Shown here in pieces: positions 5,113-16,725 of a stretch of DNA of 20,171 nt; positions within the stretch are counted from its first letter, which is position 1, and every line of letters begins with the position of its first letter. The notes beneath the pieces were generated by a model, which saw nothing but the letters and a program-made list of their open reading frames with translations, was not told the origin of the DNA and made no database searches. The translations under genes and the position numbers were made by a program. The stretch is from a virus, in IMG/VR virus record IMGVR_UViG_3300036406_000738, positions 1 to 20,171 of that record; one strand, given 5' to 3'.

Positions 5113-7626
5113 TTAGTCCGCAAGATAAAATGCCCAGTACTTGGCCACGTTAATGTCGCTCCCTCCGGTGATGCCGTCCACTGTTGTCTTTAATGCGCTG
5201 ACATCGACACCGTCCACCAAACCATTGACGATGATGTCGCCATCTACGTTAACGTTGCCCAAAATATCCAAGACCTCGAGCGGCGTGCGCGTTCCGATGC
5301 CTACGTATGGCGTGCCTGCAGTTGCGGTGGCGTACAGCGCTAACACACTGGCCGCCGTTGGTGTGGCGTCGTCCTGCAGCTTCAGTTCAAATACCCCCGG
5401 GCTGTTTTCCGCTAAAGAGATAGACGAATTACCGGTGCCAGACAACACGTTGACGCCGCTGGGTTCAAGCTCAATGGTGCCGCCGTCGGTCTTTCCGTCC
5501 TCATACTTGATGGATGTCTTTGCGAAGTCATCACCTTTCGGTTGGAAGGTGTCATACAGCAGCTCGAGCTTGCTGCTAATTCCGGTGACGCTGGCGTCTA
5601 TATCTGCAAGGTCCACGCCTATCTGCCCTGCGTTGTTTGCAGCCTCTTGGATGCCTTGTGTGAATCCGTTTGAAGGGCTGCTCGGGAATCCGTTGACAGG
5701 CCCGCGCACGTCTTCTGTGTCGCTGGTAGTGTCGGTGATGCCGGTGGCGTCGCGGTTGACGTAGAAAGCCTCGACGGTCGTGGTGCGGCTGTTGGCCTCA
5801 ACGCTCAGCTGAAACGGCAAGAAGTAGCGCTCGCCGTCGTAGAGCGTGTGATACATTTCAATCGGCCCCTTGTAGAGCTCGCCCCGTTGCACGCGCGTGT
5901 GCAGCCGCTGGCCGGCCAGTACCTCGCGCACGCCCAGCAGGTGGATGCCGATGCCGGTGCCGGTGTAGTTCAACGATGTCCACCCGGTACTTGGCAGGAG
6001 CTGCCCGCCGTCCACAATCTTTAAGATGCCCTTGCTGTTTTGCGAGACGGCATCACCTACGTACACCTTGGGCTGCTCGTACACCACGCGCGACGAGCTG
6101 AGCCCATGCGCGCTGAACGTCACCTCGTCGCCATTGGTGGCGTCCTCCTCAATCTGATCTACACGCAACAGCTGCACCCGGTAGTTCGTGTTGACGTTCG
6201 TCACGTTCGACAGGTTGCCTTGGTAGCTCACGTTCTGAATTGCACCCGTGAGCTCGATGCTATTCGACTGCGCTGTCAGCGGTGGCGTCACGATGTCCAT
6301 GGCCACCACGAGCGCGCCTTCACCGGTGCAGCCCTCGTTGATGTCGTAGACGTCGGTCACGATTTCAAAGGGCCCGGCAGTCAAGGACCAGGTCGTGGTG
6401 TTGTACGTGTGCGGCTCGTATGAAAGCACGCTCCCTGCCTCCATCTGAAACAAGTTCTGCACCCCTGCGAAGGTCGCGGTGCGCCGCAGGTAGTAGTTGC
6501 CCACCTTCAGAGTGAAGCGCAGCAGGAAGCGCCCTACCCGAGCGTTGCCCGTTGTGGTGCCGTCGCCTGGCTGCGTAATATAGGCGGTGCCGCTGAGACG
6601 CAGCACGCTATTGGCTGCGTAGTCGAAGTCAGCGTCTTCCAAGGCTGTGCCGAAGTCGGTTTTCTCGTAGACGTTGGCAAAGATGCGCGGCACGTTGCCG
6701 CTGTAGTTCTGCGGCCGCTCCACGCGCAGCAAAGGAGGCAGGAAGCTGTGCTCGTAGCCCGCCATCTTGATGACGTCCGTGCCGAGGGTGAGCACCGTGT
6801 TGAGCGAGGTGCTGCTGCCGCTGACGGTGCCGCCCTTGGTGCAGGTGAAATAGTTGAGTGTGGTGCTGTACTGGTATGCGCCTACTGGGATGAACCAGAA
6901 AGTGCCGTTGGCCTGAAAGATGCGCGCGTTGAATGCCGTCGCGAAGGATTCGAGCACCGTGTAGATGGACAGGAACTGGTTGACGCCATCCTCGTCCGGG
7001 TTGTAGAAGCTGTTGTGCAGCACTTTCGTGTTGTACAGAAAGTTGCTCGCCGCCACGTGGTCGTCACTGCGGAAGTCGTCGACGTACTTCAGCATCACCG
7101 TGCTCGTGCCCCACAGGTGCGACTGGCGCACCCACGAGAGGCCTATGATGAGATGATCTACGACAGTGCTCGGCGAGGCGAGGCCGTAGCCGGTGCCGCC
7201 GTTGTTGTACAGCACGTTCTTGAGGTTGCCCAGGTCATCGACTGCACGCAGGGTGGTGCGCACCGGAAAGTACTCGTCTTGGATGACGCACTGGTCCGGC
7301 TGCAGCACTCCGCCCCAGTAGAGCGCGTTCACCCCGTCGGGGTCTTTGATGATGGCGACGGTGAACTCACCCTCCGCCGATGTGGCCAGCGCCTCGATGA
7401 AGGTGCTGTGGTCGCTCGTGGTTTCGGTGAACGGGATGCTAACCGATGAGCCGATGATAGGCTGGTGCCGGCTTTGGTTGTCGCCCTCGTACGAAAGCGT
7501 AAAGCCCTCGCCGCCCAGGTTGAAGGTGTGGGTGCTGCCGAGGTAGCCGTCTTGGTAGATGTTAACGCGCCAGCCGTTGCCGTCCTGGTCAAGGAACTCA
7601 CTGTACAGCCTCAGGTTGTATGCCAT
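5113..7626 (-). CDS. large tail-tip or baseplate protein
   Basis: The 837-residue protein shares one base with the tape measure stop (TGATG) and sits where tail-tip hub genes occur. The first 150 residues (LRLYSEFLDQDGNGWRV, VDDLGNLK) resemble the N-terminus of tail proteins I recall from phages of Bacteroidota; the region to about residue 560 would be the hub or baseplate part. The remainder changes character: helical and coiled (about 670-705), then beta-rich with ELKLQDD and a GIGTRTPLEVLDILGNVNV motif (797-815), which is a fibre-type element. It may thus be a hub fused to a central spike or fibre base. Specific residues that would assign a catalytic role are not seen. Function is inferred from position and composition. 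Confidence 0.72.
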   Translation of the reverse strand: MAYNLRLYSEFLDQDGNGWRVNIYQDGYLGSTHTFNLGGEGFTLSYEGDNQSRHQPIIGSSVSIPFTETTSDHSTFIEALATSAEGEFTVAIIKDPDGVNALYWGGVLQPDQCVIQDEYFPVRTTLRAVDDLGNLKNVLYNNGGTGYGLASPSTVVDHLIIGLSWVRQSHLWGTSTVMLKYVDDFRSDDHVAASNFLYNTKVLHNSFYNPDEDGVNQFLSIYTVLESFATAFNARIFQANGTFWFIPVGAYQYSTTLNYFTCTKGGTVSGSSTSLNTVLTLGTDVIKMAGYEHSFLPPLLRVERPQNYSGNVPRIFANVYEKTDFGTALEDADFDYAANSVLRLSGTAYITQPGDGTTTGNARVGRFLLRFTLKVGNYYLRRTATFAGVQNLFQMEAGSVLSYEPHTYNTTTWSLTAGPFEIVTDVYDINEGCTGEGALVVAMDIVTPPLTAQSNSIELTGAIQNVSYQGNLSNVTNVNTNYRVQLLRVDQIEEDATNGDEVTFSAHGLSSSRVVYEQPKVYVGDAVSQNSKGILKIVDGGQLLPSTGWTSLNYTGTGIGIHLLGVREVLAGQRLHTRVQRGELYKGPIEMYHTLYDGERYFLPFQLSVEANSRTTTVEAFYVNRDATGITDTTSDTEDVRGPVNGFPSSPSNGFTQGIQEAANNAGQIGVDLADIDASVTGISSKLELLYDTFQPKGDDFAKTSIKYEDGKTDGGTIELEPSGVNVLSGTGNSSISLAENSPGVFELKLQDDATPTAASVLALYATATAGTPYVGIGTRTPLEVLDILGNVNVDGDIIVNGLVDGVDVSALKTTVDGITGGSDINVAKYWAFYLAD

Positions 7627-10067
7627 CAGAATCCGCGGATGCGGCCCCGGTCGATGGAGGCCCGTTCGTTAACGAGGAGGAGGTCGTTGCCGGAGATGCG
7701 GCCGGTCACGACGACGTTGCCGCCTGCGTTGCCTATCATGCTCCGCAGCTTGTCCAAAGGTGCGACCACTTCCGGGTTGGTGCGCGCTCCGGAGTACTCA
7801 CCCATGAGGCCCAAAGTAGGCCCGCTAATTACACCACCGTCGGCAAAGGCCATGACGTTGCTGAACACACTCTTGATGAGCGCCATGCCCGCCGTAATGA
7901 GCGCAGGGAGCACGATGGCTGCACCCGGTCCGGTGCCGACGGCCGTCTGCCCTGCCGCCTGAATTGCGAGGGCGGTGGCTGCGTTGAATGCGGCATCGAC
8001 TGCTGCGCTTGCCACGCCCTTGAGCGCTTCCTGTGCACCTTCGCCGGTCACGATGAGCGTGCCGAGTGCAGTGCCGAAAGCGTCGCCCATGGAGAGCACG
8101 TCGCTCTTCAGGTTCTGCACGATGTTTTGAATTTCGTCCGCGCGCTCCTTCGCTGCTGCAAACTCTTGATCCGCGAGGCCGGTGTCGGCGACGGTAGCGC
8201 CGGGCGCCATGAGGCCGCGGTTGTCAAGGGCCGGGTTGGGAATTTGCCCTGGCGCAATCATCGGCGCCGGGCCTTGGCCGGTAGCCATGCGAGCCAGCTG
8301 CGCGCTGCGCTCGTTCTCGCCGAGCAGCTTTGCCGCCACCGCTGCGTCGTTGTATGCGCCCTTCAGTCCGTCGAGGTAGGCCTCGTAGTCGCCAGATACC
8401 GCGAGCTCTGCCTGCAACAGAAACAGCCGCTCCGCCAGCACGTCCTTGTAGGTCTTCTCAGCTTTCTCCGCCTTGTCCGTGCTGTCAGCCACAGCGGTCA
8501 CAGCCTTTGCGGTAGCCGCGGCGGCTGGCACAACCTTTTCCAAGGCCTTGCCAAAGTCGCTGGTCGCGGCCGCAGCGCTGTCGCCCTTGTATTTAATGCT
8601 GTCGAAGAAGCCGTCTACCTTGGCTTGGATGCCGTTCAGCCAGCCTGCGATGTTGCTGTCGGCACCGACCGCAGCCAGCACCATATCCACCGCGCCAGCA
8701 ATCTGCTCAAATGCGCCGATGACAGTGCGCACCACTGTCTGCATAACGGTCACACTTATGTTGGCCAAGCTGCCAAAGAATCCCATCCAGTCGCCGGTGA
8801 ACAGCGAGGTAAATGCGTTGAGCAGGTTGCCGATAATCCCGAATGCACCGCGGAAGATGCCCATGATGAGGTCGAGCGCGTTGCCGATGTAGGCGCTGAT
8901 GTGGGTTCCAAAGCGGTCCCACACGATTTGAAACAGCGCCACACCTGCAGACCACACCATCTTGATGGCTTCGATGGCTGCGCTCACCGTCTCCTTGAGG
9001 GTGTCAAAGACCTTGGCACCGTTGCCGGTGGTGAAGTAGGCCTTGATGTCGTCCCAGTTGGCGATGATGAGAGCGACGGCAGCCGCCACAGCGACTGCGA
9101 TGAGGCCGATGGGGTTGGCGGCGAGGCTTACCGTCATAGCCTTTACCGCCGTCGATGCTACCAGGCTGGCCGCACGCACCGCCACGAGCGCCTTGCTGAA
9201 CGCGCCAAAGCCGAGGAGCAGCGGACCGATGGCCGCGGCGATGCCTCCGATGATGAGAATGATCTTCTTGGTACGCTCGTCAAGCTGTTGGAATGAGGCT
9301 GCCATCTCGGTCACCTTGTCGATGGCTTTGGTAACCATAGGCAGCAGGAGCTCGCCGATGCTGGCACCGGCCTGCTTCAGGTTGTCGAGCGCGGTGCTGA
9401 ACTTCCCCGCGGCCGTCTGGCTGAGGCGCTCCATAGCTTGGTAGGCAAAGCCGCCCTCTTCCGCGAATCCGCGCAGCACCTCGTTGAACTGCTCGACGCT
9501 AACAGCGCCTGCGCCCAATGATGAGGCAGGCAGGCCGGTGGCCTCGCTTAGCGCCGTGAAGATGGGGATGCCGCGCTCGGCAAGCTGGTTCAAGTTCTCA
9601 AGCTCAACCTTGCCCTTGGCTTGCACCTTGGCGAAGATGGCCGTGATGTCCTCGATGCTCTCGCCGGAGGTGGCTGCGATGTCGCCGAGGAAGCCCAGCT
9701 GCTCGTTCACCTGGCTGATGTCAGTGCCAGCCGCCAGCAGCTGGCGAGCGGCTCCGGCTATTTCCTCGATTTGAAACGGTGTAGCCGCAGCGAACTGGTT
9801 GAGCTGGTCCACCATGGCGCCCGCCTGCTCAGCTCCGCCCGTGAGCGAGATGAACTGCGTCTCCATGGTCTCGAGGTCGGCGGCGGCTTTGACGGCCGCA
9901 GCGCCGAGGCCCACAATCGGCAGGGTCACGCCCATGGTCATGGTTTTGCCCATGTCCATGATGTTGTCCGACGTCTGCCGGATCTGCCGCTGAATCTTGC
10001 CGAGCTGCTTGTTGAAGTCGCGGGTGTCCGCACCTACGCGAACTATCAGGTCGCCGAGTTTAGCCAT
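7626..10067 (-). CDS. tail tape measure protein
   Basis: The 813-residue protein begins 8 bases inside the end of the chaperone gene. It has the TP901-type tape-measure layout: an N-terminal domain (LGDLIVRVGADTRDFNKQLG), helical segments through 60-260, hydrophobic stretches at about 268-290 and 319-337 (NPIGLIAVAVAAAVALI), then a long helical rod. It ends in FADGGVISGPTLGLMGEYSG and PEVVAPLDKL, a C-terminus I recall in phages of Bacteroidota. Tape measures set tail length and are held in the tube until DNA ejection. At the usual rough 1.5 angstrom per residue, the tail would be about 120 nm. No peptidase or lysozyme domain is visible in it. Confidence 0.92.
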   Translation of the reverse strand: MAKLGDLIVRVGADTRDFNKQLGKIQRQIRQTSDNIMDMGKTMTMGVTLPIVGLGAAAVKAAADLETMETQFISLTGGAEQAGAMVDQLNQFAAATPFQIEEIAGAARQLLAAGTDISQVNEQLGFLGDIAATSGESIEDITAIFAKVQAKGKVELENLNQLAERGIPIFTALSEATGLPASSLGAGAVSVEQFNEVLRGFAEEGGFAYQAMERLSQTAAGKFSTALDNLKQAGASIGELLLPMVTKAIDKVTEMAASFQQLDERTKKIILIIGGIAAAIGPLLLGFGAFSKALVAVRAASLVASTAVKAMTVSLAANPIGLIAVAVAAAVALIIANWDDIKAYFTTGNGAKVFDTLKETVSAAIEAIKMVWSAGVALFQIVWDRFGTHISAYIGNALDLIMGIFRGAFGIIGNLLNAFTSLFTGDWMGFFGSLANISVTVMQTVVRTVIGAFEQIAGAVDMVLAAVGADSNIAGWLNGIQAKVDGFFDSIKYKGDSAAAATSDFGKALEKVVPAAAATAKAVTAVADSTDKAEKAEKTYKDVLAERLFLLQAELAVSGDYEAYLDGLKGAYNDAAVAAKLLGENERSAQLARMATGQGPAPMIAPGQIPNPALDNRGLMAPGATVADTGLADQEFAAAKERADEIQNIVQNLKSDVLSMGDAFGTALGTLIVTGEGAQEALKGVASAAVDAAFNAATALAIQAAGQTAVGTGPGAAIVLPALITAGMALIKSVFSNVMAFADGGVISGPTLGLMGEYSGARTNPEVVAPLDKLRSMIGNAGGNVVVTGRISGNDLLLVNERASIDRGRIRGF

Positions 10068-10383
10068 TACTACTCTTCGCTATTTGGCGCAAGATAGCCA
10101 AGCCATCCGCAGCGGGTTTGCGCTTTGCCTCCCAGGGGAACTCGGCGATGTCCTCGGGCTTGAGGCGCTTCTTCGTGTGTGGGTTCAGCAGCAGGCAGGC
10201 CAGCCACCTGGTGCGCTCCCACTCGCGCTGGTCGCGCTCTTTCTCGAGCTCGAAGAAGCCGGTGACTGCGTTGTTGAACTCGGCGAAGGTGAGGCCGTAA
10301 AGCACGGACGGGGTCAGACCCAGCTGGCCCAACCCCGTCGCTTCAAGTTCGTCCCAGTTCAGGGCTTTGCCTTTCCCGCGCTT
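10060..10383 (-). CDS. tail assembly chaperone, downstream (T-like) part made by -1 frameshift
   Basis: The frame from 10383 to the stop at 10060 is the -1 frame of the upstream chaperone gene and stays open across the whole join. It has no ATG at the right place; a TTG at 10332 would be the only late start. Translated after the slip, it reads KRGKGKALNWDELEATGLG and continues into a Trp- and Glu-rich helical domain (LYGLTFAEFN, then EWERTRWLACLLLN) with a Lys-rich tail. The shifted product would be 200 residues, the first 93 shared with the upstream chaperone. This mirrors the lambda G and GT proteins, which help load tube subunits on the tape measure. The TAC family cannot be named with certainty. 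Confidence 0.72.
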   Translation of the reverse strand, partial: KRGKGKALNWDELEATGLGQLGLTPSVLYGLTFAEFNNAVTGFFELEKERDQREWERTRWLACLLLNPHTKKRLKPEDIAEFPWEAKRKPAADGLAILRQIAKSSNG

Positions 10384-10661
10384 TTTTTTTGGTCGCCTCC
10401 GAGCAAGGCCGCGACGGCCTGCGTGAGGGTCTCAAGGTCGGCGATGGTGCAAAGCTCGAGGAAGTCGTCCGCCGTCAGGTCCCATGTGTGGCCGTTCGCT
10501 TTGGCTCCTGCCTCGGCAAAATAGTAGGCCAGCTCGGGGATGCGCGTGACGTCTGTCTGGTCGATGTTAGCCACCTTCACGCCGGTGTTCTGTTCGAACT
10601 TGCGCCACGCCCCGAGGGATGCGCGCAGGGTGAAGGTGCGGCCGCTTAATTCAACCAGCAT
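10359..10661 (-). CDS. tail assembly chaperone, upstream (G-like) protein
   Basis: The 100-residue protein (MLVELSGRTFTLRASLGAWR) sits between the tail tube and the tape measure, the fixed place for tail assembly chaperones. It overlaps the tail tube stop by one base. The central part is helical (IPELAYYFAEAGAKANG, then DDFLELCTIADL) and it ends in QKKSAGKAKP. A tract of nine A residues close to the 3' end, followed by the open -1 frame, argues that part of the ribosomes continue into the next frame to give a longer protein. The short form is the likely G equivalent. Confidence 0.75.
   Translation of the reverse strand: MLVELSGRTFTLRASLGAWRKFEQNTGVKVANIDQTDVTRIPELAYYFAEAGAKANGHTWDLTADDFLELCTIADLETLTQAVAALLGGDQKKSAGKAKP
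10381..10391 (-). promoter_or_regulatory. predicted -1 ribosomal frameshift site (A9)
   Basis: Read on the minus strand the sequence is C followed by nine A (10390-10382) and G. The zero frame reads CAA AAA AAA AGC, so an A AAA AAA heptamer sits in the proper phase for a -1 slip of both tRNAs. The downstream frame is in the -1 position relative to the upstream gene and open. GC-rich sequence follows, but I could not define a stem or pseudoknot by eye. Confidence 0.75.
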
Positions 10662-11107
10662 CAGACGATGACTTCACGTACAACAGCGCCGGTGAGGTCC
10701 ATCGTCAGCGACCAGGTCACGTTGTCCTCAAAGCCAGCCGTTTGCTCGATGCTGGTGATGTAGCCCGCGACGTCGAACTCCTCGTCGCCTGCGTTAGGCA
10801 AGCTGCCGCTGCCAACGTTGGAGAATACCGCAAAGACCTTGGTGCCTGCGATTTGGTAGTCGACCAAAGCGTTGAAGCTGTTGGTAGCGTCCTCAGCGAA
10901 GATGCCGCTGACATTGATGCTGGCCGACTTCAAGGCCGGCAGGATTTCGCGCCAGCCGGCCGACGTCTTGGTGGTGATGTCGCGCACGTCGGTGGACATT
11001 GAGATGCTGCACTCGGTCACAGCGCCGACCACCGTGTGGGTGCCGTCGGTCGTGCCGGTGAAAAAGCGAATGCTCGAGGCATTCAGGTAGCCAGTGGTCT
11101 GTGCCAT
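10661..11107 (-). CDS. major tail tube protein
   Basis: The 148-residue protein begins MAQTTGYLNASSIRFFTGTT and resembles the TP901-1 type major tail protein family (Phage_tail_2). Typical features are an N-terminal strand with a FFTGTTDGTHTVVG segment, an SISMSTDVRDITTKTSAGWREIL motif near residues 34-56, an ISGIF-like segment (NVSGIFAED) and a C-terminal strand region with WSLTMDLTG. The protein forms the rings of the tail tube. It lies just before the chaperones and tape measure, the expected order. It shares one base with the preceding gene (TGATG). Confidence 0.85.
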   Translation of the reverse strand: MAQTTGYLNASSIRFFTGTTDGTHTVVGAVTECSISMSTDVRDITTKTSAGWREILPALKSASINVSGIFAEDATNSFNALVDYQIAGTKVFAVFSNVGSGSLPNAGDEEFDVAGYITSIEQTAGFEDNVTWSLTMDLTGAVVREVIV

Positions 11108-13583: not shown

Positions 13584-15497
13584 TTACGCGTTGATGTCGA
13601 TGATCTTGGAGAGAGCACCAGCCTGGCGCACGTCGAAGTCAAAGAAACGGTTAACGTGCAGCACAATCTGCGCCGTGCCTGCTGCGCTGTACGGGTCAAC
13701 CAAGAGGTCGATACCGCCGAAGTAGGCGAGGATGCAGCCCTGTTGGAAGTTACCGAACAACATCTGACCGACTCCCGAAGATGCGTCCGTGAGGTACGGA
13801 GTAGCTACAGCCGGGTAGCCGTTAAACGTGTTCGTGCCGAGGTCGTACAGGGCAGAAACCGATGCCACCTGCGCGATGTTCTTTGCGAACTTGTAAGCCG
13901 ACGGGCTCATCACGTAGCGGGCTGCTGCGAGGTTGCCGCCAGCTGCAAGCACTGCAGCTTCCATAGCCACTGCAATTGCCGACGTCAAGGTCGTCGTGCC
14001 GTCCGTCGACTGGTTGTTGATGCTGGCACCGTCCAACGTGTCGAATGCCGTCGTGTCGATGATGGCGTTCATTGCTGCCTGCAGCTCCTGTGCGATGACC
14101 ATGTCGACTGCTGCGCCGCCTTGGAGGAGGAGCTGCTTCGAGTAGGTCGTCTTTGCAGATGCGCGCTGCGGAGAGAGCGTGAGCTCGTCCATCTCGAGGG
14201 CGGATGCTGCGTTAGCGTCGACTTCGCCCTCAAGCGTACCGACGGCCTTCACAGAAACCCGCGGGAACTTCAGGTTGCCCGTCATGCCCTGCAGGGTCGT
14301 CGTGCCCAACAGCTCGATGACAGAGGGAGCGCGCAGAGCTTCGATAGCCCCTGGCACGTTCGTAGCTACAAAGCCGTTGCCGTCGCCGCTGTCGGCTTGG
14401 AAGTTGTCCGCAGCGCCTGCGCGGAAGAGGGCCTTCGACGGGATAGCCACCTGGCCGACCGACTGCAAGCCTTGAGCCCGCATCTCGCGCTGTGCCTCCT
14501 GTGCCCACTCCGCCTCGGCGCCCTCCAAAGAGCGGCCGTTGGCTGCCTGCATTACGGCACGGCTCAAAGAGAAACGCCCATGCACGCGCTCGATTTCGCG
14601 CTGCTCGCTCTTGCCTACGGCCTCGCCGCCAGCCATCCGGGCCACCATCGTCTCATGGTCTGCGCGGTGCTTGATCTTCTTGTCTAAAGCTTCGACTTCG
14701 CCGACGAGCCACGCTGCGCGCTGCTCTTCTGCATCCGTCATCAAACGACCGTCACGGTCGGTTCCTTCGACGAGGGCGACGTGCTCCTCGTAGTGCTTGG
14801 CGCGGAGCGCCTTCAACTCGTTCAAGTTCATGGTGTGGGTGGGTTTATTGGGTGCTAATTTATGCACTGGTGAGATAGGGGTATTTCGTACTTCGGGCTC
14901 GGCCTGCGCAGCCTCCACAGGTGCGTCGATGGCCTCGAGGATTTCTTCGACCACCTCGTCCTCCGGGCCGGCCGCCTTAGCGCGGGCCGCCACCGTCGTC
15001 GTGGGGTAGGCCGGGTAGGTCACCGGGCTGACGTCAAGCAAAGCGCCCATCCGGGTGATGGTGCGCAGGTTCGCTTTGCGGTCCCAGTCCTCATCCGCAA
15101 TCGTGAATGCGAAGGAGCTCTGCGAGATGTCGCCGCGCTTGATGAGCTTGTACAGGTCCCGGCCCTCGGTGGTGTCTGCCAGCCGCGCGGTGTAGCGCAG
15201 GCCGGTGTCGTCCACCTCGAGGTCGAGGGTGCCGTTCGTGGTCCGCGCCAGCGGCACGCCGGTGTGGTTGATGAGCAGCCGCACGTCGTCCTGCATCACG
15301 CCCTCGAATGCTCCGCGGGCAATCCGCTCCTTGAAGTAGCCGATGTCGGTGATGTCGTCAAAGACGGCCGCGTAGCCGCTGACGGTGAGGGTGTCGTCGG
15401 AGGCGGCACGCACCTCGCTGACGCGCAGCTCCACCGCCTCGCCGTACTGCGAGCGCACCTGCTCGGGCGCCTCAGGCGTTGTCGTTGTCTGTGTCAT
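13584..15497 (-). CDS. prohead protease fused to HK97-fold major capsid protein
   Basis: A single 637-residue frame starts at ATG 15497, 26 bases inside the portal end. Residues about 18-175 match the HK97 prohead protease (S78 family): LTVSGYAAVFDD (37-48), LLINH with H78, and GDISQSSFAF with the likely catalytic S128. An Ala/Glu/Pro linker runs to about 220. MNLNELKALRAKHYEEH (223 onward) starts a coiled delta-type region to about 300, and residues from about 340 form the HK97-fold capsid (GNGFVATNVP, VIELLGTTT, LKFPRVS, then FGNFQQGCILAYFGGI and a final VRQAGALSKIIDINA). M223 (position 14831) could serve as an internal start for free capsid protein. Most HK97-type phages keep the two as separate genes. 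Confidence 0.88.
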   Translation of the reverse strand: MTQTTTTPEAPEQVRSQYGEAVELRVSEVRAASDDTLTVSGYAAVFDDITDIGYFKERIARGAFEGVMQDDVRLLINHTGVPLARTTNGTLDLEVDDTGLRYTARLADTTEGRDLYKLIKRGDISQSSFAFTIADEDWDRKANLRTITRMGALLDVSPVTYPAYPTTTVAARAKAAGPEDEVVEEILEAIDAPVEAAQAEPEVRNTPISPVHKLAPNKPTHTMNLNELKALRAKHYEEHVALVEGTDRDGRLMTDAEEQRAAWLVGEVEALDKKIKHRADHETMVARMAGGEAVGKSEQREIERVHGRFSLSRAVMQAANGRSLEGAEAEWAQEAQREMRAQGLQSVGQVAIPSKALFRAGAADNFQADSGDGNGFVATNVPGAIEALRAPSVIELLGTTTLQGMTGNLKFPRVSVKAVGTLEGEVDANAASALEMDELTLSPQRASAKTTYSKQLLLQGGAAVDMVIAQELQAAMNAIIDTTAFDTLDGASINNQSTDGTTTLTSAIAVAMEAAVLAAGGNLAAARYVMSPSAYKFAKNIAQVASVSALYDLGTNTFNGYPAVATPYLTDASSGVGQMLFGNFQQGCILAYFGGIDLLVDPYSAAGTAQIVLHVNRFFDFDVRQAGALSKIIDINA

Positions 15498-16725
15498 TGT
15501 TTCCGTTGTGTTCTTGCGTTTCCATGCCGCTCGATTCGCTGCTTTCGTGGGCGAGCTTTTCGCTGTACTGGCCGAAGTACTCGAGCGCAATCTGGTTGAC
15601 TTGCACCGTGTGCACGTCGCCGCCGGTCACCGGGTTCATATCCTCCTTCATACGCACCTCGTTGATGGAGACCACGCCGGCCTGCAGCATCTGGGTGTAG
15701 AAGTTCGCGCGGGCCGCCATGTCGCCGCGGTACAGGTCGGTCATGTCGTGGCGGCTGTAGATCTGCGGGCGCTGAAAGGACTGAATCAGCTTGCGGTCTA
15801 CCTCCTGCTGCAGCCGTACCGCCCATGGCGTGATGGTGTGGCGAGCGAATTGGATGCTCTGCTGCTCGACGTTGTTGAAGGTCGACTGGCCCGGCACCTG
15901 CACGAGGTCGGGCGGCACACTGAAGATGCGGCAGATTTCCTCTGCTTGGAACTTGCGCGTTTCGATGAACTGCGCCTCGTCGGGCGGGATGGTCAGCGCC
16001 TGGTACTTCATGCCGTACGACAGCAGCTTCACGCCCGCGTCGCTGCTCTCCTTCCATGACTTCGCAAGCTGGGCGAGCTGCTCCGCCTTCATCGGCTGCT
16101 CGGGAGCGAGGATGCCAGTAGGCCGTGCACCGTTGCCGAAGTATTCGGCGCCGTAGTCCTGCACCGCCTTGGCCAGGCCGAGGTTCTCCCGGTGCATGCG
16201 CAGCGGGCTCATGCGTCCGTGGTTCGCAAGCTCGAGCATGTTCTCCGGGCGCACGATGCCCAGGTCTTTTACGACGTACACTTTCTCCCCTGCGATGATT
16301 TTGGGCTCGACGTCGTAGTAGTGGAGGATGTCGAGCTGGGTGGCGTCGCCGCGGTTGTCCCGGGTGATCATGGCGTAGCCCACGCCGTACATGAGCGCCT
16401 GGGTGTAGAGCGCCTCCCAGAACTCGTACGCGGTCTGGTAGCCGTTGGGCTCGTACCGGCACAGGTCAAATGCCGGATGACTCTCCGCCAAGGTCACCTC
16501 GCGCCCGCTGCGTTGGTAGATGTTGAGGGCGAGTGACGCACAGGTGGAAGAGATACGGTAGATGCACGCGTAGACGGTCGAGAGCGCAAGGGCGCCCTGC
16601 TCGGTGACGGTGACGCCCGATCCGGTGTTCATGAAGACGCCCAGCTCACGCGCGATGGTGGCGCTGTCGAACTTGCCCACACGGGCCCGCTTTTGGATGC
16701 CGAGGCGCTCGAGGATAGTAGCCAT
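15472..16725 (-). CDS. portal protein (HK97 family)
   Basis: The start is ATG at 16725 (TTG at 16734 is possible), giving 417 residues. It has the HK97-type portal pattern: VYACIYRISSTCASLALNIY near 51-70, an AYEFWEALYTQALMYGVGY segment near 99-117, LDILHYYDVEPKI, RMHRENLGL, then QAEEICRIFSVPPDLV near 280-295 and NNVEQQSIQFARHTITPW. The dodecameric portal is the DNA gate at one head vertex and docks the terminase. It follows the large terminase by 15 bases. The C-terminus is Asn/Asp/Glu-rich and overlaps the protease-capsid start. Confidence 0.92.
   Translation of the reverse strand: MATILERLGIQKRARVGKFDSATIARELGVFMNTGSGVTVTEQGALALSTVYACIYRISSTCASLALNIYQRSGREVTLAESHPAFDLCRYEPNGYQTAYEFWEALYTQALMYGVGYAMITRDNRGDATQLDILHYYDVEPKIIAGEKVYVVKDLGIVRPENMLELANHGRMSPLRMHRENLGLAKAVQDYGAEYFGNGARPTGILAPEQPMKAEQLAQLAKSWKESSDAGVKLLSYGMKYQALTIPPDEAQFIETRKFQAEEICRIFSVPPDLVQVPGQSTFNNVEQQSIQFARHTITPWAVRLQQEVDRKLIQSFQRPQIYSRHDMTDLYRGDMAARANFYTQMLQAGVVSINEVRMKEDMNPVTGGDVHTVQVNQIALEYFGQYSEKLAHESSESSGMETQEHNGNNDTDNDNA

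Follow-up and report, generated by a model that had tools for sequence, protein, structure and literature searches.

An A9 run kept at constant length joins tail-assembly chaperone genes in two reading frames in phages and prophages of Bacteroidota and suggests RNA polymerase slippage

The frameshift that links the tail-assembly chaperone genes G and T is a textbook case of conserved recoding in long-tailed phages and is assumed to take place on the ribosome. In phage lambda, overlapping open reading frames (ORFs) between the tail-tube and tape-measure genes give rise to a short G protein and, by a ribosomal -1 shift at G GGA AAG, to a C-terminally extended GT protein. The locus described here shares this arrangement, but in place of the mixed heptamer of lambda it has a run of nine A residues (A9), the T frame of its relatives lies in either -1 or +1, and the machine that slips is probably a different one. 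The tail chaperone of phage Mu, made by a -2 ribosomal shift, has T in the +1/-2 frame, as is the case in 19 clusters of the present family, and to our knowledge the Mu site is not a direction-indifferent A9 run. In dnaX of E. coli, a Shine-Dalgarno (SD)-like element is located upstream of the ribosomal slip site.

Homopolymers can also be slipped on during transcription. Bacterial RNA polymerase, with a hybrid of 9-10 bp, slips efficiently on nine A/T in vivo, and dnaX of Thermus uses nine T's (PMC5009743). In transcription slippage of E. coli single-A insertions dominate and increase with run length, and one-base deletions are rare (PMC5574713). The dnaX gene of Thermus thermophilus resembles our locus in its nine-base A/T homopolymer, and its homologue in other species uses a ribosomal -1 shift; in contrast to dnaX, where the product of slippage is truncated, the gene studied here is a phage assembly gene in which slippage would open a conserved C-terminal domain. 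Transcriptional slippage on A/T-rich runs also provides a share of extended product in IS elements and in type III secretion genes of Shigella. As a further likeness, Spa13 and Spa32 of Shigella concern needle length; no phage tail is involved, and there is no homology to the proteins studied here. For tail chaperones, no report of polymerase slippage was found in the open-access literature.

The DNA analysed here, referred to as the window, is a stretch of 20,171 nucleotides of the IMG/VR virus record IMGVR_UViG_3300036406_000738. On its minus strand the gene order is tail tube - G - T - tape measure, which is also encountered in Cellulophaga phage phi39:1 and in Bacteroides phage F4. The major tail tube gene (10661-11107, minus strand) was recognized by PF06199 (E = 9e-14) and phrog_1407 (E = 2e-23) and the tape measure gene (7626-10067, minus strand) by PF20155 (E = 2e-16) and phrog_991 (E = 3e-38). 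Between them, a G-like ORF for an upstream chaperone of 100 amino acids occupies positions 10359-10661 of the minus strand, with its ATG at 10661 and its stop codon TGA at 10361-10359, a few codons past CAA AAA AAA AGC. The A9 run (T9 on the plus strand) is located at 10382-10390 and is read there in the zero-frame codons GAC CAA AAA AAA AGC GCG GGA AAG GCA AAG CCC TGA, which places a heptamer A AAA AAA of the type X XXY YYZ in phase with the zero frame of the G ORF. The -1 frame is bounded upstream by a TGA at 10434-10432, is open from 10431 and ends with a TAA at 10062-10060, overlapping the start of the tape measure gene; this T-like frame (10060-10431, minus strand) contains the Phage_TAC_6 domain and is the predicted C-terminal half of GT. 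A G-T fusion across the A9 run is predicted to comprise 200 residues (...GGDQKKKRGKGKALNWDELEATG...). The +1 frame is shut about 15 codons past the run. In the -1 frame, no ATG is present in the stretch from the A9 run to the conserved T domain, the earliest start-like codons of the T frame are a TTG at 10332 and a GTG at 10305, and neither of them is preceded by a Shine-Dalgarno sequence. When the sequence was read again, the run, the frames and all coordinates of the preliminary description proved correct, as did its statements that the -1 frame remains open to 10060, lacks a proper start and yields a 200-residue product.

For T, matches to PF09550 (Phage_TAC_6) were obtained in 27 of 57 members with a best E value of 2.2e-11; the window's own T scored just below the curated cut-off of PF09550 (E = 0.001) and matched phrog_16333 with E = 2e-14. 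Both PF09550 and phrog_16333 cover the T domain alone, and the junction is outside of these family descriptions. No sequence family was found for G, and an NCBIfam search of G was also without match. An AlphaFold model of G (pLDDT 86.6) resembles predicted viral proteins that are named tail assembly chaperone or are unnamed, with E values down to 5e-6. Its likeness to solved chaperones is weak (YqbN, 3klu, Z = 3.3; HK97, 2ob9, Z = 2.7), Foldseek returned no significant match of the G model in the PDB, and a structure search with T against BFVD gave nothing below 1e-3. The matches of T to PF09550 and phrog_16333 and the gene order, and perhaps also the likeness of the G model, support the view that G and T represent a G/GT-type tail-assembly-chaperone pair joined through A9, and the lambda-like arrangement proposed earlier is borne out by the order of the four genes, by PF09550 and by the conserved run. 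Elsewhere in the window (13584-15590), a single ORF of 668 amino acids fuses a prohead protease (PF04586) with an HK97-type capsid protein (PF05065).

Apart from the A9 run and a U-tract at 292-300, the whole 20-kb window, which has a GC content of 60%, is free of homopolymers of 6 or more bases. Among the lysine codons of the window's other genes, AAG (177) is about three times more common than AAA (57), and a second AAA AAA pair does not occur in those genes. A chance A run was therefore rejected, based on the rarity of long homopolymers, the preference for AAG, the absence of AAA AAA pairs elsewhere and the maintenance of the run in relatives.

Relatives were gathered by searches with T and T profiles, which provided 247 usable loci in 61 protein clusters at 85% identity. 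An uninterrupted run of A8-A10 is present at the junction in 58 of the 61 clusters (A9 in 51, A8 in 6 and A10 in 1), whereas A7 is found in two distant clusters and G GGA AAC in one. Counted by loci, there are 206 cases of A9, 36 of A8, 2 of A10, 2 of A7 and 1 without a run. Interrupted A runs were not seen at the junction of any related locus, and runs of at least 8 bases elsewhere amount to 6 in 297 kb. A9 occurs in 206 of the 247 loci, among them isolate phages as well as several bacterial genomes, and is never interrupted, which led us to reject an artefact of assembly or of sequencing. DNA-level phase variation was not supported either: loci of one lineage seldom differ in run length, and what separates the A10 pair L204/L205 from its A9 sister lineage is a substitution at the border of the run and not an indel. 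G genes of like length that are recognisably homologous are found across nearly all lineages and, therefore, the zero frame is certain. Comparison of relatives had been set beforehand as a refutation test for the proposed frameshift, and the proposal passed it: the run is kept in all but a few distant loci, and relatives also maintain an open frame downstream. Of the conservation anticipated in the preliminary description, the length of the run stands, while its codon phase varies and the T frame of relatives is not always -1.

The same arrangement is present in prophage-like loci of bacterial genomes (L159, L295, L296, L298 and L300). A scan of bacterial genome contigs with the motif EWERTRW gave no match, and a scan with T of a Bacteroides phage revealed six prophage-like loci, one of which (L157; 3990-4306, in a Prevotellaceae genome) is a T-domain remnant without a G gene and probably a decayed prophage. 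In Bacillus phage Andromeda (L283, 1712-1730), GAA AAA AAA GCC TAG (A8) is located between tail genes with T in the -1 frame, and this pair is annotated as two separate hypothetical proteins. The record of Dulem virus 31 (L279, PP511318.1) is filed as Microviridae and yet has genes for tail sheath, tail tube and tape measure, and it looks as if either its taxonomy or its assembly is wrong. Classic heptamers are found in the distant relatives L160 (G GGA AAC), L042 (A AAA AAC) and L289 (G GGA AAG), and actinophage chaperones examined as controls carry mixed heptamers. Within one lineage, G GGA AAG with T in -1 (L289, 2423-2860) stands against A8 with T in +1 (phi39:1, L068, 2945-2960).

Clearly, the frame in which T continues is not fixed across the family. 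Of the 61 clusters, 42 (202 loci) have T in the -1 frame and the other 19 (45 loci) have it in the +1 (= -2) frame, and an earlier remark that the long run makes both slip directions possible was apt. Also, A9 occurs in all three codon phases (AAA AAA AAA; NAA AAA AAA A; NNA AAA AAA AA). On the T tree a minimum of 4 direction changes, two of which are required by branches with good support, and a minimum of 12 phase changes have to be assumed, while the length stays nine; these counts are minimal estimates, as the tree was obtained from about 116 columns, contains several long-branched rows and is partly unresolved. Two loci with T in +1, L222 and L237 (GTA AAA AAA AAG TGA), belong to the window's own well-supported clade of 11. 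In both of them the T frame opens within the run and G stops directly past it, leaving an overlap of 11 nt, and the run is therefore the only possible place for the shift. In L249 and L097 an identical sequence of 15 bases, TCA AAA AAA AAG TAG, is found before T, which lies in -1 in the former and in +1 in the latter. In phi39:1 an A8 run is joined to T in the +1 frame, and in Bacteroides phage F4 an A9 run is joined to T in the -1 frame.

If the shift were a ribosomal -1 event, T should always be in -1 across the family, and 19 of the 61 clusters have it in +1. For transcriptional slippage, a homopolymer of about 8-9 or more A/T should be kept whatever its codon phase, and this is what was observed. 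Selection for an in-phase 7-mer alone would lead to exactly nine bases at most 19% of the time, and the excess of nine over about 15 independent phase/direction lineages corresponds to P values of about 5e-7 to 6e-5 in a rough test. A ribosomal heptamer would need seven bases, would tolerate A AAA AAG or other heptamers, would let the flanking A's drift and would fix the frame of T; since none of this holds and the length is fixed while phase and direction are free, polymerase slippage is favoured over a ribosomal -1 heptamer. Judging from these sequence patterns, A9 is probably a programmed slip site that would give rise to a minority G-T fusion, most likely by slippage of RNA polymerase.

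When copying the nine-base run of the window, the polymerase would slip and a minority of mRNAs would gain one A, whereas in relatives with T in +1 the mRNAs would have one A fewer or two more. Ordinary translation of such slipped mRNAs would then lead to GT, which we infer to be expressed as the minor product next to G. A single inserted A leads exactly to the -1 frame, which is the commoner arrangement, and two inserted or one deleted lead to the +1 frame; because one-base deletions are rare in E. coli, slippage to +1 would require insertions of two bases or another bias of the polymerase in the lineages concerned. An upstream nascent hairpin like that of the Roseiflexus IS gave no signal in the relatives by plain folding. 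By analogy with lambda, free G might coat the tape-measure protein and GT might recruit tail-tube subunits.

Among the relatives, the host is known for Cellulophaga phage phi39:1 and the Bacteroides phages F1, F2 and F4, and prophage-like relatives are located in Bacteroidales genomes. TTG-N19-TACGTTTG is the promoter pattern of Bacteroidota, and one match to it was obtained in the window where 0.07 would be expected. SD-like sequences are present upstream of only 3 of the 17 starts of the window. Based on the hosts of relatives, the promoter match and the few SD-like starts, the host of the virus is very likely a member of the Bacteroidota. The U-tract at 292-300 sits behind a strong hairpin (-28.4 kcal/mol) and therefore forms a terminator. 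Within 252-345, this minus-strand terminator (hairpin and U9) is followed by the Bacteroidota-type promoter, and the region is probably the end of the late operon and the start of another operon.

Among other explanations, ribosomal frameshifting, in which tandem lysyl-tRNAs would slip by -1 on A AAA AAA and ribosomes would shift by -2 (or +1) in the +1 lineages, is the best one and we consider it possible, though somewhat unlikely. A point against slippage of the polymerase is that ribosomes are known to shift by -1 on A AAA AAA, a heptamer that every A9 run has in phase and that is in phase in the window. At 10396-10400 (minus strand), 5 nt before the A run, a Shine-Dalgarno-like GGAGG, present in the window's clade, is a candidate ribosomal stimulator, and SD-like sequences upstream of the run are enriched in clusters with T in -1 (14 of 39) when compared to clusters with T in +1 (2 of 19) or to control windows (13%). 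Classic heptamers occur in distant members of the family and in actinophage chaperones, and tail chaperones with -1, -2 or +1 ribosomal shifts are known (PMC5009743). However, ribosomal shifting explains neither the retention of nine A's in any phase, nor why A AAA AAG never substitutes for the run in -1 lineages, nor why the direction has switched repeatedly while the run remained the same. Moreover, no conserved RNA structure was found downstream of the run by plain folding without pseudoknots (z = -0.78 for the window, mean z = -0.08), and because so few starts of the window are SD-like, it is doubtful whether an SD would act as a stimulator in this host. Ribosomal -1 frameshifting is therefore probably not the main mechanism, and a contribution of it in this window is one option. 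Of the -1 frameshift put forward originally, the slip site and the -1 position of T in the window hold, while its specifically ribosomal nature is not supported, given T in +1 in 19 of 61 clusters, the free phase and the lack of a structure.

Sliding of ribosomes on poly(A), free of any one tandem-slip geometry, would be indifferent to direction as well, and ribosomes of E. coli do slide on A runs; this process, however, is robust only with A11 and gives little product with A9 or A10 (PMC4363877), and as A10 or longer runs are nearly absent in this family, we judge it very improbable. That G and T are separate genes, with T made from an internal start of its own or by translational coupling and without any fusion, is the least credible possibility, for although the two are annotated apart, as hypothetical proteins, in Cellulophaga phage phi39:1 and Bacteroides phage F4, and the in-frame TTG at 10332 and GTG at 10305 exist, these candidate starts lack an SD, the stretch from the run to the T domain is without ATG in 25 of 57 clusters and without ATG, GTG or TTG in 13 of 57, and the conserved A9 would be left unexplained.

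With regard to polymerase slippage, we lean towards the view that a ribosomal -1 shift has been swapped for slippage of RNA polymerase on a length-fixed A9 run across a large group of phages and prophages of Bacteroidota, and that T has moved freely between -1 and +1, since polymerase slippage is indifferent to phase and can yield either frame. The ancestral mode of the family may have been ribosomal, as the distant L160, L289 and L042 keep classic heptamers, and the data would also fit if some lineages shifted on the ribosome and others through slippage of the polymerase, as known for dnaX. The G/GT arrangement and ribosomal -1, -2 or +1 shifts of tail chaperones are known, whereas the open-access literature yielded no report of polymerase slippage for this gene. 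In practice, such pairs can be found by a simple rule, A8-A9 in the interval from the tail tube gene to the tape measure gene and T in either frame, and slippage of this kind, if true, would account for their annotation as two unrelated genes. It would also represent a transcriptional solution to a problem for which only ribosomal solutions have been known so far; a different machine would have arrived at the same product ratio, as in the two forms of dnaX. The course of the switch could then be followed along a tree on which phase and direction have changed independently many times.
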